This document shows, piece by piece, positions 11,217 through 15,724 of a stretch of DNA of 64,000 nt (positions within the stretch are counted from its first letter, which is position 1; each line of letters begins with the position of its first letter). A program made the translations under genes and the position numbers. Under the pieces are notes generated by a model. That model did no database searches. It was not told the origin of the DNA and saw only the letters and a program-made list of their open reading frames with translations. Location: NCBI GenBank assembly GCA_001599595.1, contig BCHH01000003.1, positions 3,965,224-4,029,223 on the forward strand, given 5' to 3'. The DNA is from Beverwykella pulmonaria (lineage: Eukaryota > Ascomycota > Dothideomycetes > Pleosporales > Melanommataceae).

Positions 11217-14200
11217 TCACCATGACCCCCTCGACACCATCGCCGGCGCATGCTTCTTACGCTCGACCTCTGCTGCCTCACTATCCGCATCCTCGAGTTT
11301 CTGCACTAACTCATCAATCTTTTTGAAGGACCAGGATTTATAGAAGGCAGGGTAGCAGAACGGCCTCAGATCATACCGATTATCATCGGGCGAGTAGGTC
11401 TCGAGATGCAGACCCGGCGTCATTGTAGTCATCTTATGTCGATTGATAGCCCAGTAGTGGAAAAATTTCTTGACTGTGGTGGCGATTTCGCGGGGAGTTT
11501 TTTCCTCACCCCAGACATGCAGAAGCTTAGTGAAGGCGGAGTATGGGCCTGCTTTTTCTTCTTTGCGGATGCTAAGTAGTTTTGTTAGTTCGAAATAAAG
11601 AGTTGTTCATTGGTTGTTGGAACTCACCGTCCAAGCACAGAAAGCTCGGCATAGGTGAAGCCCATGTCTATCTCGTCAGTCTGCACGTAGTCTTCCGTGA
11701 TGGGCTCGAGTTCTGCTGTTGGGGCAGCGGTGACGAATTCTTCGAGGATAGGGAGGGAAAACTCGGTTTGGGCCCAGGTTATGAAGCGAACTAGGTCGAT
11801 TTTGGAAACGCCGCCTAGTTACCAAGTCAGTATGTTTCTTCGTGTGAGAGGGGGAGAATTAGGTGAATCATTATGTGTCTGAGGTAGCTGAAGTGTCCTG
11901 AATGCCACGAAAGAGTATTAGTGACTTACCAATCGGGTTGATATCTGCGCTGCTGCAATCATATCTAACTCTGTTAGTGTACTGACCCGAATTATATATG
12001 AATAGATATTACAACTTACTTGGTCAAATAGCCACGAAGGCACTCACTTGAGGCAGGTGGTCAAGATCAGCCTGGTTCTTCAAAGTGTATAGAAGCAAGG
12101 AATGGAGGGAGGATGCCGCATCAGTGACATGTGCAGAGTTGTGAGACACCACTTGGGGTGGTGCCTCACCCACTTTGCAACAATACATTGACCTTGCACC
12201 CCGGGCTTACATACTCAACGTTGGCAGTTCCAAGAACTAGCAGACTTCCACCACCTGGTCTCTTCCGTACTGTGGGCTTAGGAGGTACAAAGTTAGTGCC
12301 GTTCAAAATAGGATCAGGCAAGATATGGGCTGTGAACTCACAAGCATTTGAGCAAAATAATAAGCCGTCACCATGCGCGTGCGTGCTTGTATATTCTGGA
12401 GTGCCAGATTCTCTGAGTCAGTGCCGCCATGGACACGGAACTGGGGGTCAAAGCCTGTGGCCACAGGGAGGAAGTTCTTGATACTCTTGAAGCCTTCATC
12501 GATGTCGGCTTCGAGGAAGTAGGCGCCTGTTGCTTCGGAGAGACGTTTGGCGCGTGAACGGGTTGCAGAGCTGGATTGCATTTTCATGCCCATGTAGACT
12601 GTGTGCAAGATGCGATTGCAGAGATCGGTGGGCGAGTCGGGGGTCCAGTCTTGTGCTTCGCCGGGGCGGGCTGCTATGCGGAAGCAGTCTTCTTGGACTT
12701 GCTTGTTTCCGTCTTTGATGGCTTGGATAACAATGTGGCACATGGAGTACACGAGGGTTGCGGTGGCGCCTAAAGGGAGTTAGTGGGTCTGCTTCCAGGT
12801 CGAAATCAAATTGTGACACGCAAAGGGAAGATTAAAGAGGGGTGTTTAAATCACGAATACATGATCTGAGAACGTACATGAGTCGATGCCTCCACTGAGT
12901 GGGACCAAAAACCCAGCCTGCTGCGAGCGGCGCAAATAGTCCCTTTGCCAGAGTTAGTCTTGGTCCATTCATTTCAATATGGAAAGACTAACCACATCCA
13001 GCACGCCGCCGAGAGACTGATTTCCTCCTCCGGTTTGTGGATTCTCAATTGTTGGGCCGGAGTAGGCTTGACGTGGAGATCGAAGTCAGCGTTATCTCCC
13101 GAGAGGCTGAAATCAACTTCGATTCTCTGATACGATGGCGCCGACAGACTCTGCAGACCTCGACTAGGTGCAAAGCGGAATGAGCGGACGCTTTCGATAT
13201 CCTACTTGAGTTGTGAGATTCCGAGTGTACCAAGAGCAAGAGAGAGTCCCATACCACAACCGCAGTAACAACTTCCACGTCATTCAGGGACTAAAATTGA
13301 GCACAAGTCTTAGCAAATTTTCAAATGTTAGCAACCAATGCAAAGGAACACTGCTTACTGCAGAGCAGTTAGCAGATGTCGTAAATGTTCGGAGAGGTAC
13401 AAGATTAGCGATTGTCTGAACCGTTCAAAGATTGAACAGGACGTCAAGCTTAAAACGTGTACCTCGACTTACGGACCAAATTGGCTACCCTGGGCAACGA
13501 TGGATCCATTTACGATAATCATCGCGCAGCCGTCACTTAAATTGGGAGTAAAAGACTCAGCAAAGGTCCTAAGGTTAAGGGTTAACGCAAAGGAGGGATT
13601 TGCTTACTAGTAGAGACGATCTCCATCACCTCCTTGCTCTAAGTGGAGGACCAAGGTCAGCGTAGTTCTTCAAAATAAGTGAGGAAGACGGGGGATGCCA
13701 CAATTGTGCCATGTGAAAAATCGCAAGACAACACCCTAGTGGGTGGTGCCTCACTCACTCTGCAACAAGACAATGATCTTGCAACCTGGGCTTACTAACG
13801 ATTTGAGTAAAGGTACACCTAGTTTGAGTTAGCTTCATATGTGAAACAAGAATATCAGACCATACCCCTCCATTCTTCCTCGTAGCCTCTTGGATGAGCG
13901 ATATTCTCGTGTCCAGCTTCCTTAAGTTGTGATGAGAACCTTTGAGGTAGAGGGCCAAAGTCAGCGCAATTCTCCAAAATAGAGGGGAAGAGGAAGTTAC
14001 AGGCCTACAGCCATGTACTGTAAAAGAGTTTAAGGTGCTCAAAGTGTTTAAGGTGTTTAAAATGATCCGAAAGGGCATTTCGCGTCAACTTAGGCACACT
14101 GTCGACTTTGACAGCTTATTGACTCTGACAGGAGACATGAACTGCGCACCCCCAAGTCACGTACCGCTGCTATTCGAGATCACCTCTACTCCATTGAGGG

Positions 14201-15724
14201 ACATATCGGTCTTAAGAACGGGTTAGAGTGAGCCGGTTGTTCAATAAGACAAGAGTAGACACATCTATTTAAAGTCTTTGCAATAAAACGCAATACTCAC
14301 TACGAAAAAGTCAGCAAGCAATCACTAAGAAGGGATGAGGTACAGATTCTAGACATCCTAGGATATGTACCCCGACTTACGTACCGTGAGGTGACTTCGG
14401 GATCCAAATCTCCTCCTGATTAGAGGTACAAATTTTAGTAAATGTTCAAGGCTGAGTGCAAAGGATGGCTTTGCTTACTACAAATCAGTCAGCAGATATT
14501 TTGGTGATGGGGAATACACAAGTCAGGGACTTGTCTGAACTGATCAGGAGGTTCTGTAACAGAATCTGAACCTGTACCGAGTTACGTACCACAGGACTCG
14601 GCGCCAAAGCAGGTGTCATAGGTAGAGATGACTGCATCTCCGATAGGTACTTTGCGGGTGCCTTGAATCTTGTAGATCATGTCGGGAAGAAAGTACTCTT
14701 CCACGTGTTGGGGACGGTTCCAGGGTCTAGAGGTGGGAGCTCACTTAGTAGGCAGCTTAGATGGAAGAGGTGATACTTAGTGTCAGAAATCCGGTTGAAC
14801 CACCCTTCCGAAGTGTTTCAAGCGGGGATATAGAGAAAGGCTTTGCCTACTGCAAGTCAGTTAGTAAAGGTTTGAAAAAAAGGGAAGAGGTACACCTGAT
14901 TTGGGTACCCCGGCCTGCATACCATGAAGAATCGTGCCTCGCGGTAGTTTCCTAGGATGGTTAGCCATTGTCGAGATACTGAGAAGCAATGATGTGGAAT
15001 GCTAGGGAAGACACTGCGAACTAGATGGGTCCACCGCTCAAGGGTGCTTTGTTTCCTATGTGAGCAGAACACAAGGGGGATCTTACCGTCGTTGGCGAGG
15101 CTCAACTTTGGCCTGATCAAAACGATCTTGGTCAGTTAGTATGCTAAGATGAACCCAAGGGGATGGGCTCAGCTTGCCTTCCCGTTGAGTATGATGATCC
15201 GGCTGCAAGATGTCAGATTCAGGCAGAAGTGGGGGAGGCCAGTACACTGACCAGTTGAACCTATTGTTTCGATGAATGACAGGTGCGCCAATATCGAGAA
15301 GAATGCCATGAAGAGAGGCATCTGTCATGAGCCGGCTAATCATCTGCCATGTGTGCAAGTACGTATCTCCCTCGAGGAAATGGTCGAGACATCCATAGCC
15401 CGTGATCTGTGCTGTATTAGGATCAATGCTACGCGTTTCGCCCACGTAGCCCGCTATTTGGACGGAGAGTGGACTTCGAACCGAGGATGGAAGACATATA
15501 TATGGGAGTGAAAGCAATGAAGCATACCTCAAGTTCAGGCCCAACGCGCAGGGTGGCCCCTTTGGACTTGGCAATCAGAATGCTCTCTTTGATGCGTGCC
15601 AAGTTGCCCTCCCAGTCTAGGACCCACTGGTTGAGCTGTATTTGGTAAGTAGAAGGACGCCCGCAGAGGCAAGGGCGAAGGAGTAACCAACCGAGCATGT
15701 CGCTACTGTCATCAACCGACCCAT
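11217..15724 (-). CDS. qns1: glutamine-dependent NAD+ synthetase, 22 exons with four twin introns
   Basis: Last step of NAD+ synthesis: ATP-dependent amidation of nicotinic acid adenine dinucleotide, using ammonia from glutamine. Exons: 15724-15692, 15635-15528, 15406-15252, 15202-15178, 15126-15087, 14951-14924, 14726-14591, 14415-14386, 14210-14165, 13939-13866, 13818-13800, 13638-13608, 13535-13478, 13290-13255, 13201-12993, 12942-12878, 12769-12342, 12276-12215, 12046-12020, 11964-11930, 11814-11628, 11571-11217. They sum to 729 codons (728 aa), the usual fungal length. The nitrilase-type glutaminase half keeps its Glu (GPELEITGYG), Lys ([11 protein letters not shown]) and Cys (ESCEE). 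The synthetase half has the P-loop [10 protein letters not shown] and [10 protein letters not shown]. Intron 4 starts with GC. Introns 6, 7, 8 and 13 fit only as [D1,2] stwintrons. Exons 4-14 are tiny, and 21 introns is exceptional for such a gene. Confidence 0.93.
12047..12214 (-). other. intron 18, paralogous to intron 11, with an internal hairpin
   Basis: 168 nt. It starts GTATGTAAGCCCGGGG and shares its central and 3' blocks with intron 11. The centre forms a near-perfect inverted repeat, GTGAGGCACCAC / GTGGTGTCTCAC, separated by five bases. Splicing as a single GT-AG intron is in frame and gives [12 protein letters not shown]. Confidence 0.8.
13291..13477 (-). other. stwintron 4 of the NAD+ synthetase gene, type [D1,2]
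   Basis: Exon 13 ends AGC CAA TTT and exon 14 starts TCC CTG AAT GAC (the conserved [10 protein letters not shown]). Between them is G^GTCCGTAAGTCGAGG...CTGCTAACTGCTCTGCAG^TAAGCAGTG...CAATTTTAG. The internal intron (13476-13358) is 119 nt and its donor GTCCGT is weaker than in copies 2 and 3 (GTACGT). The re-formed external donor is GTAAGCA. Confidence 0.82.
13536..13607 (-). other. canonical intron 12, sister of the external introns of stwintrons 2 and 4
   Basis: 72 nt, GTAAGCAAATCCCTCCTTTG ... CAATTTAAG. Its 5' part matches the external portions of stwintron 2 (TAAGCAAAGCCATCCTTTG) and stwintron 4 (TAAGCAGTG then TTCCTTTGCATTGG). Its donor is uninterrupted, so it looks like the same intron without an internal passenger. 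Confidence 0.75.
13639..13799 (-). other. intron 11, paralogous to intron 18 of the same gene
   Basis: 161 nt. It starts GTTAGTAAGCCCAGG, has the central block GTGAGGCACCACCC, and ends with a block around TTTTGAAGAACTACGCTGACC before CCACTTAG. The same three blocks occur in order in intron 18 (12047-12214). The 3' block is also seen in intron 9 (13940-14164). Confidence 0.8.
13940..14164 (-). other. intron 9, 225 nt, mosaic of the two intron types
   Basis: The 5' end GTACGTGACTTGGGG resembles the internal introns of stwintrons 2-4, including the preceding G. The 3' end (TATTTTGGAGAATTGCGCTG then ACTTTGGCCCTC) resembles introns 11 and 18. The frame requires it to be removed as one unit from GT at 14164 to AG at 13940 ([11 protein letters not shown]), so it is not a [D1,2] stwintron. 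Confidence 0.65.
14211..14385 (-). other. stwintron 3 of the NAD+ synthetase gene, type [D1,2]
   Basis: Exon 8 ends CCT CAC and exon 9 starts ACC GAT ATG (SPHTDMSLNG). Between them is G^GTACGTAAGTCGG...TTGCTGACTTTTTCGTAG^TGAGTATTG...CGTTCTTAAG. The internal intron (14384-14300) is 85 nt. The re-formed external donor is GTGAGTA, the best of the set. Total length is 175 nt, the same as stwintron 2. Confidence 0.88.
14416..14590 (-). other. stwintron 2 of the NAD+ synthetase gene, type [D1,2]
   Basis: Exon 7 ends GAG TCC TGT and exon 8 starts GAG GAG ATT, which gives the conserved CEE of the glutaminase active site. Between them is G^GTACGTAAC...CTGCTGACTGATTTGTAG^TAAGCAAAG...CTAATCAG. The internal intron (14589-14478) is 112 nt. 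After its removal G joins TAAGCA to form the donor GTAAGCA of a 63-nt external intron. Single GT-AG splicing would leave an extra G and destroy the active-site frame. Confidence 0.88.
14727..14923 (-). other. stwintron 1 of the NAD+ synthetase gene, type [D1,2]
   Basis: Exon 6 ends TTC AT. Then follow G^GTATGCAGG...TACTAACTGACTTGCAG^TAGGCAAAG...CTCTAG and exon 7 starts A CCC TGG. The internal intron (14922-14850, 73 nt) has a perfect TACTAAC branch point. Its removal joins G to TAGGCA, making the external donor GTAGGCA; the external intron ends with branch CTACTAAG and CTCTAG. A plain GT-AG removal (14922-14727) leaves one extra nucleotide and breaks the frame before PWNRP. Confidence 0.85.

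Follow-up and report, generated by a model that had tools for sequence, protein, structure and literature searches.

The closest described counterparts of the introns reported here are the [D1,2] spliceosomal twin introns (stwintrons) of the Xylariales, in which an inner intron lies between G1 and U2 of the donor of an outer intron. In the open text of the papers concerned, propagating families are described, including genes with more than one such intron (PMC12403724, PMC8469720), and splicing intermediates are reported (PMC12403724). The sister stwintrons of Hypoxylaceae and Xylariaceae (PMC8469720, PMC9024468, PMC12403724) occur, according to the same texts, as similar copies of about 185 nt at many loci per genome, with near-terminal inverted repeats, no general target-site duplication, and a distance from branch point to acceptor that is short in the inner and long in the outer intron. 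Excerpts of a study of the Dothideomycetes Fulvia fulva and Dothistroma septosporum describe introner-like elements, repeated introns that many genes have gained; four genes hold two gained copies (PMC4457414). Nested introns that split a donor are also known from single loci, such as the [D5,6] stwintrons of rtnA, two of which lie in the one gene of Helminthosporium solani, a member of the Dothideomycetes; in the available text, these have another split point, sit at positions common to many taxa and form no repeated family (PMC6616335).

We analysed a window of 64,000 nucleotides from Beverwykella pulmonaria, whose reverse strand carries a glutamine-dependent NAD+ synthetase gene (11217..15724), presumably of the QNS1/NADSYN1 type. 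Our hand-built model of this gene has 22 exons and 21 introns, the latter of 47 to 225 nt, and its translation of 728 aa contains no internal stop. The protein has Pfam matches to CN_hydrolase (2.1e-39) and NAD_synthase (6.1e-23), and human NAD synthetase (6ofb) aligns without gaps to its first 272 residues. The top full-length relatives, among the best 120 of 4215, are the proteins of Melanomma pulvis-pyrius (80%) and Pleomassaria siparia (79%), both Pleosporales, the order to which the fungus itself would thus belong; a neighbouring gene, an NCL1-type tRNA methyltransferase, likewise has Pleomassaria (85%) and Melanomma (80%) as its top two relatives. Among the matches listed, the closest proteins are thus from Pleosporales and not from Xylariales, the source of the published propagating [D1,2] stwintrons. 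A candidate for a second NAD+ synthetase elsewhere was rejected, as the sole PF02540 match sits, judged by eye, in a GMP-synthase-like ORF; a split paralogue may nevertheless exist, because this search also missed the window's own intron-split gene.

Four introns of the gene, all on the reverse strand, are well-supported candidates for [D1,2] stwintrons on the evidence of their sequence. Intron 6 (14727..14923; 197 nt, phase 2) is composed of the outer donor G at 14923, an inner intron at 14922-14850 and the rest of the outer intron at 14849-14727, with a joined donor GTAGGC. In intron 7 (14416..14590; 175 nt, phase 0), the G at 14590 is followed by an inner intron at 14589-14478 and the outer rest at 14477-14416 (joined donor GTAAGC), and in intron 8 (14211..14385; 175 nt, phase 0), the G at 14385 precedes an inner intron at 14384-14300 and the outer rest at 14299-14211 (joined donor GTGAGT). 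Finally, intron 13 (13291..13477; 187 nt, phase 0) comprises the G at 13477, an inner intron at 13476-13358 and the outer rest at 13357-13291, and its joined donor is again GTAAGC. All four start with GGT and finish with AG, so that removal as ordinary GT-AG introns leaves one surplus G, and the frame is kept only by excising the entire GGT...AG stretch. Excised in this way, the protein shows no gap at residues 129, 175, 185 and 261 against the six best full-length proteins listed, all of them from Dothideomycetes and five from Pleosporales.

The inner splice site has a recognisable form, an acceptor [C/T]AG followed directly by T[A/G][A/G]G[C/T] and preceded by a branch point, which occurs exactly once in each of the four introns; the distance from the branch 5-mer to the inner acceptor is always 7 nt. 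None of the seven other introns of at least 108 nt in the gene contains it. Among 2000 shuffled versions of introns 6, 7, 8 and 13, the pattern was held by 17, 22, 11 and 8, respectively; as it was defined after inspecting the four, these rates describe its rarity and are no formal test, and their product of 2e-9 is no true probability, since the pattern is post hoc and at least two of the four introns are related by descent. The earlier note on this DNA had placed four nested introns in an NAD+ synthetase gene, three of them in adjacent introns; the gene model and Pfam agree with this placement, and introns 6, 7 and 8 are indeed consecutive. Its further claims, that each leaves one surplus nucleotide under GT-AG splicing, that the same cause, an inner intron between G and T, operates in all four, and that removal of the inner intron builds an outer donor, are borne out by the surplus G at all four intervals, the single inner site and branch point of each, and the joined donors.

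Similar elements are present elsewhere in the genome. A DNA search with intron 7 returned intron 7 alone and one with the copy at locus L016 returned three places including itself; because such searches gave few near-identical copies, the family, which we call family A, was reached via short patterns. Patterns for the 5' end, for the inner junction and for an inner hairpin matched 19, 10 and 9 places (own gene included), against 6, 0 and 0 for their reversed controls. The first search pattern was overall no better than its control (25 matches against 27 for the reversed pattern), its low-mismatch matches being the useful ones. Eleven copies served to build a sequence-only model, which gave 26 matches in 194,600 bases of examined loci, 14 above 70 bits and 12 weaker. 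Two of the 14 strong matches lie in the NAD+ synthetase gene and 12 elsewhere, 11 of the latter with intact ends; 11 of the 14 are seeds of the model. These counts are lower bounds, with the best candidates scored and the model run on selected loci. Membership of the family is clear for introns 13 and 7 (134.5 and 84.8 bits) and weak for introns 8 and 6 (23.3 and 18.8 bits, the match of intron 6 spanning model positions 77-138). Sequence-similar copies are thus found in unrelated genes of one genome.

Thirteen of the 26 matches were aligned (alignment A3). All 13 copies, 11 of them at other loci, start with GGT, several having been recovered by a pattern that itself begins with GGT. The nearest pairs are 79% alike, and the family therefore looks old or fast-changing; introns 6 and 8 share 45-57% identity with the remaining copies, and a tree groups these two with weak support. 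Local duplication as the origin of the four introns was considered and rejected: introns 7 and 13 are each nearest to the copy at L024 and not to each other. By eye, the copies at L059, L063, L073 and L015 form a subfamily apart from the main family, with a common inner hairpin and the continuation TAAGCA. Another copy, L082:1391-1566, has no recognisable GGT start and lies close to the end of an open frame; it is possibly decayed or noncoding.

Every one of the 21 elements examined possesses the inner site, and its acceptor is preceded at 6-8 nt by a branch 5-mer; a pattern covering that site had been used to recover at least three of them (L066, L069 and L073). In the 13 aligned copies of family A, a candidate for the outer branch point precedes the outer acceptor by 15-18 nt, and some of these copies have further candidates; the nearest is at 8 nt in intron 8 and at 14 nt in intron 6. 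Family A thus has the layout of a long outer against a short inner distance from branch point to acceptor.

We compared the reading frames at 17 other loci: L041, L013, L016, L020, L021, L024, L025, L029, L044, L069, L053, L059, L063, L066, L015, L073 and L028, the last found by pattern. L082 (donor unrecognisable), L079, L060, L062, L017 and the five elements in the NAD+ synthetase gene were left aside; the ends of L066, L028 and L073 were placed by eye, that of L073 starting 3 nt too early with no effect on the frame. Judged by ORF length, removal of the whole stretch was the best of three offsets at 9/17 loci, beating ordinary removal at 11/17 and the third offset at 12/17. ORF length is a weak guide and does not decide the frame at these loci by itself: L066 prefers ordinary removal (391 nt against 89), and at L016 and L069 it contradicts whole-stretch removal, yet Pfam backs the stwintron frame. 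Pfam was run on 12 of the 17 junction-spanning peptides, that of L013 in trimmed form. A domain extends well across the junction in six of them (L041, L016, L020, L069, L015 and L053, the last below the cut-off). The other six give no real Pfam support for the junction: in L024, L044 and L013, the domain begins at most 2 residues from it, in L059 it begins after it, and the peptides of L063 and L025 match no Pfam family.

Each half of the element was also found on its own. Intron 12 of the NAD+ synthetase gene (13536..13607, reverse strand), an ordinary intron of 72 nt, matches only the outer-intron half of family A (31.9 bits, E 1.6e-8, model positions 115-189, match 13612-13536). Conversely, an ordinary 115-nt intron at L079:1463-1577 corresponds to the inner half alone (58.6 bits), and with its exons joined a sugar-transporter domain runs across the junction in Pfam. 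Both halves can therefore stand alone as introns. In Hypoxylon, loss of the outer constituent intron is described and loss of the inner one called equally attainable in the available text of PMC8469720; the intron at L079 looks unlike such a loss of the outer constituent, because the G and T that flank it are coding.

These observations bear on how the four introns are removed. Were they single introns cut one base upstream of GT, that is GG...AG introns with their inner AG-T sites unused, the mRNA would be identical and all four frames would fit. We nonetheless consider this unlikely, as it leaves unaccounted for the inner site and branch 5-mer in 21 of 21 elements, the lack of that site in the seven other long introns, and the solo halves, and the [D1,2] stwintrons of the Xylariales, with splicing intermediates reported in the text available, speak against it as well. 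Another reading would have two ordinary introns flanking a tiny exon, or a single ordinary intron that uses different splice sites. We enumerated, region by region, every in-frame intron of 40 nt or more (GT/GC...AG) and every pair separated by an exon of 1-60 nt with GT as the second donor, and scored the peptide of each splice choice against the Melanomma protein. There are 1-5 single and 17-56 double in-frame solutions per region, but every one scores below removal of the whole stretch (best alternatives 198, 210, 212 and 224 against 209, 217, 223 and 235 for introns 6, 7, 8 and 13), and most of those listed add or drop residues, which makes this reading very improbable. The best scores and ungapped protein matches at all four introns also agree with the claim that the outer intron joins the exons exactly. 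Errors of assembly or sequencing that put one G at each site, or a broken gene, are hardly credible: one base per site is the typical size of an error, but the frame of 728 aa is unbroken and conserved and the GGT start recurs in the family-A copies. The earlier note had likewise thought sequencing error unlikely, on the ground that one rule fixes four independent junctions.

We therefore regard it as very probable that the gene holds four [D1,2] stwintrons, spliced in two steps and acquired as separate insertions of a sister family. The spliceosome would first excise the inner GT...AG intron, an order that is presumed for the cell. This would unite the outer G with TAGGC, TAAGC or TGAGT to form the donor of the outer intron; in intron 7, the G of 14590 would be joined to 14477, giving TGT-GTAAGCAAAG. 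The outer intron would then be excised, joining the exons exactly. The elements probably arrived in the gene one by one from an introner-like family of sister stwintrons spreading in the lineage, most likely via an RNA copy, as proposed for the Xylariales, and their insertion would have left behind no general target-site duplication.

At the exon ends of the 21 elements, we found no general target-site duplication of the kind that is the criterion for DNA-transposon introners: identical flanks of 2, 3, 4, 5 and 6 nt occur in 2, 0, 1, 0 and 0 elements, with 0.85, 0.48, 0.05, 0.10 and 0.00 expected. The exon base preceding the element is T in 11/21 and G in 1/21, and the second base past it is C in 12/21 and T in 0/21, a bias that possibly reflects an insertion preference.

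Near-terminal inverted repeats are seen in many copies, for instance L041 (16 nt at 94%) and L016 (12 nt at 92%). Eight of 13 family-A copies, including introns 7 (p 0.021) and 13 (p 0.044), have a terminal helix that beats shuffled sequences (p<0.05, uncorrected); none of ten further introns of the gene, which include stwintrons 6 and 8, has one. Of the aligned cells, 76.9% pair, against 24.3-46.3% when the structure, derived from one copy in the alignment, is slid. Compensatory changes in the helix were not above shuffles; the helix looks inherited, and its maintenance finds no support here. Folding z-scores are modest (-2.1, -1.8, -1.2 and -0.8 for introns 13, 7, 8 and 6).

The gene also contains members of a second repeated family, family B, of ordinary introner-like introns. 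Searches with intron 11 (13639..13799, 161 nt) and intron 18 (12047..12214, 168 nt), both on the reverse strand, gave 8 and 9 places, each including itself, and together 12, of which ten lie outside the gene, as candidate introns, at L004, L006, L007, L008, L009, L010, L085, L087, L089 and L090. Several copies show a short inverted match by eye, with AAGGTCA close to the 5' end and TGACCTT close to the 3' end, but neither intron 11 (p 0.46) nor intron 18 (p 0.29) has a significant terminal helix. The 3' end of intron 9 (13940..14164, reverse strand, 225 nt) resembles family B by eye, and a DNA search with this intron returned itself alone. At least seven introns of the gene (6, 7, 8, 11, 12, 13 and 18) match one or other of the two families.

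Family A resembles the Hypoxylaceae and Xylariaceae stwintrons in the position of the inner intron, the similar copies at many loci, a length of about 185 nt, the short inner and long outer distance from branch point to acceptor and the lack of a general target-site duplication; near-terminal inverted repeats are seen in part of its copies. It differs in its class, the Dothideomycetes, in the number of stwintrons, four, in one gene and, as far as the open text of PMC12403724 goes, in the sequence of its repeats (GGGGTACAAGTC/GACTTGTACCCC against GUAUAAAAAC/GUUUUUAUGU in Xylariales) and the likeness of its copies (at most 79%, against more than 97% in the youngest Xylaria clusters). The introner-like elements of Fulvia fulva and Dothistroma septosporum share with the present ones their class and their gain in many genes, but are described, in the excerpts available, as ordinary introns, whereas here one family is nested. 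In the main texts of the open-licence stwintron and introner literature, Xylariales were the only group for which we found a propagating [D1,2] family. Nor did we find a report of four stwintrons in one gene in that literature, in which the tables for Xylariales sit in supplements. The earlier note had called stwintrons rare single cases or small families and four in one gene remarkable; the second point stands, within that literature, but the first understates what is published, namely propagating families and genes with several stwintrons. Introns of this kind have been described before; what looks new is their lineage, their sequence family and their density within one gene.

Tentatively, and with rather more doubt than confidence, we suggest a second origin of propagating [D1,2] stwintrons, this time in the Dothideomycetes, from a sequence that is unrelated but has an identical layout, with an extra G, near-terminal repeats and a long outer gap between branch point and acceptor. 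It would then be this layout, and not a shared ancestral element, that confers mobility, and two families at once would have the NAD+ synthetase gene as a hot spot of insertion. The origin of new introns is an open question, for which a second, distant lineage with the nested layout offers an independent comparison: features common to the Xylariales families and family A are candidates for what enables spread, and those that differ may be dispensable. With four stwintrons in one enzyme gene, Beverwykella pulmonaria would provide a natural test bed for two-step splicing.
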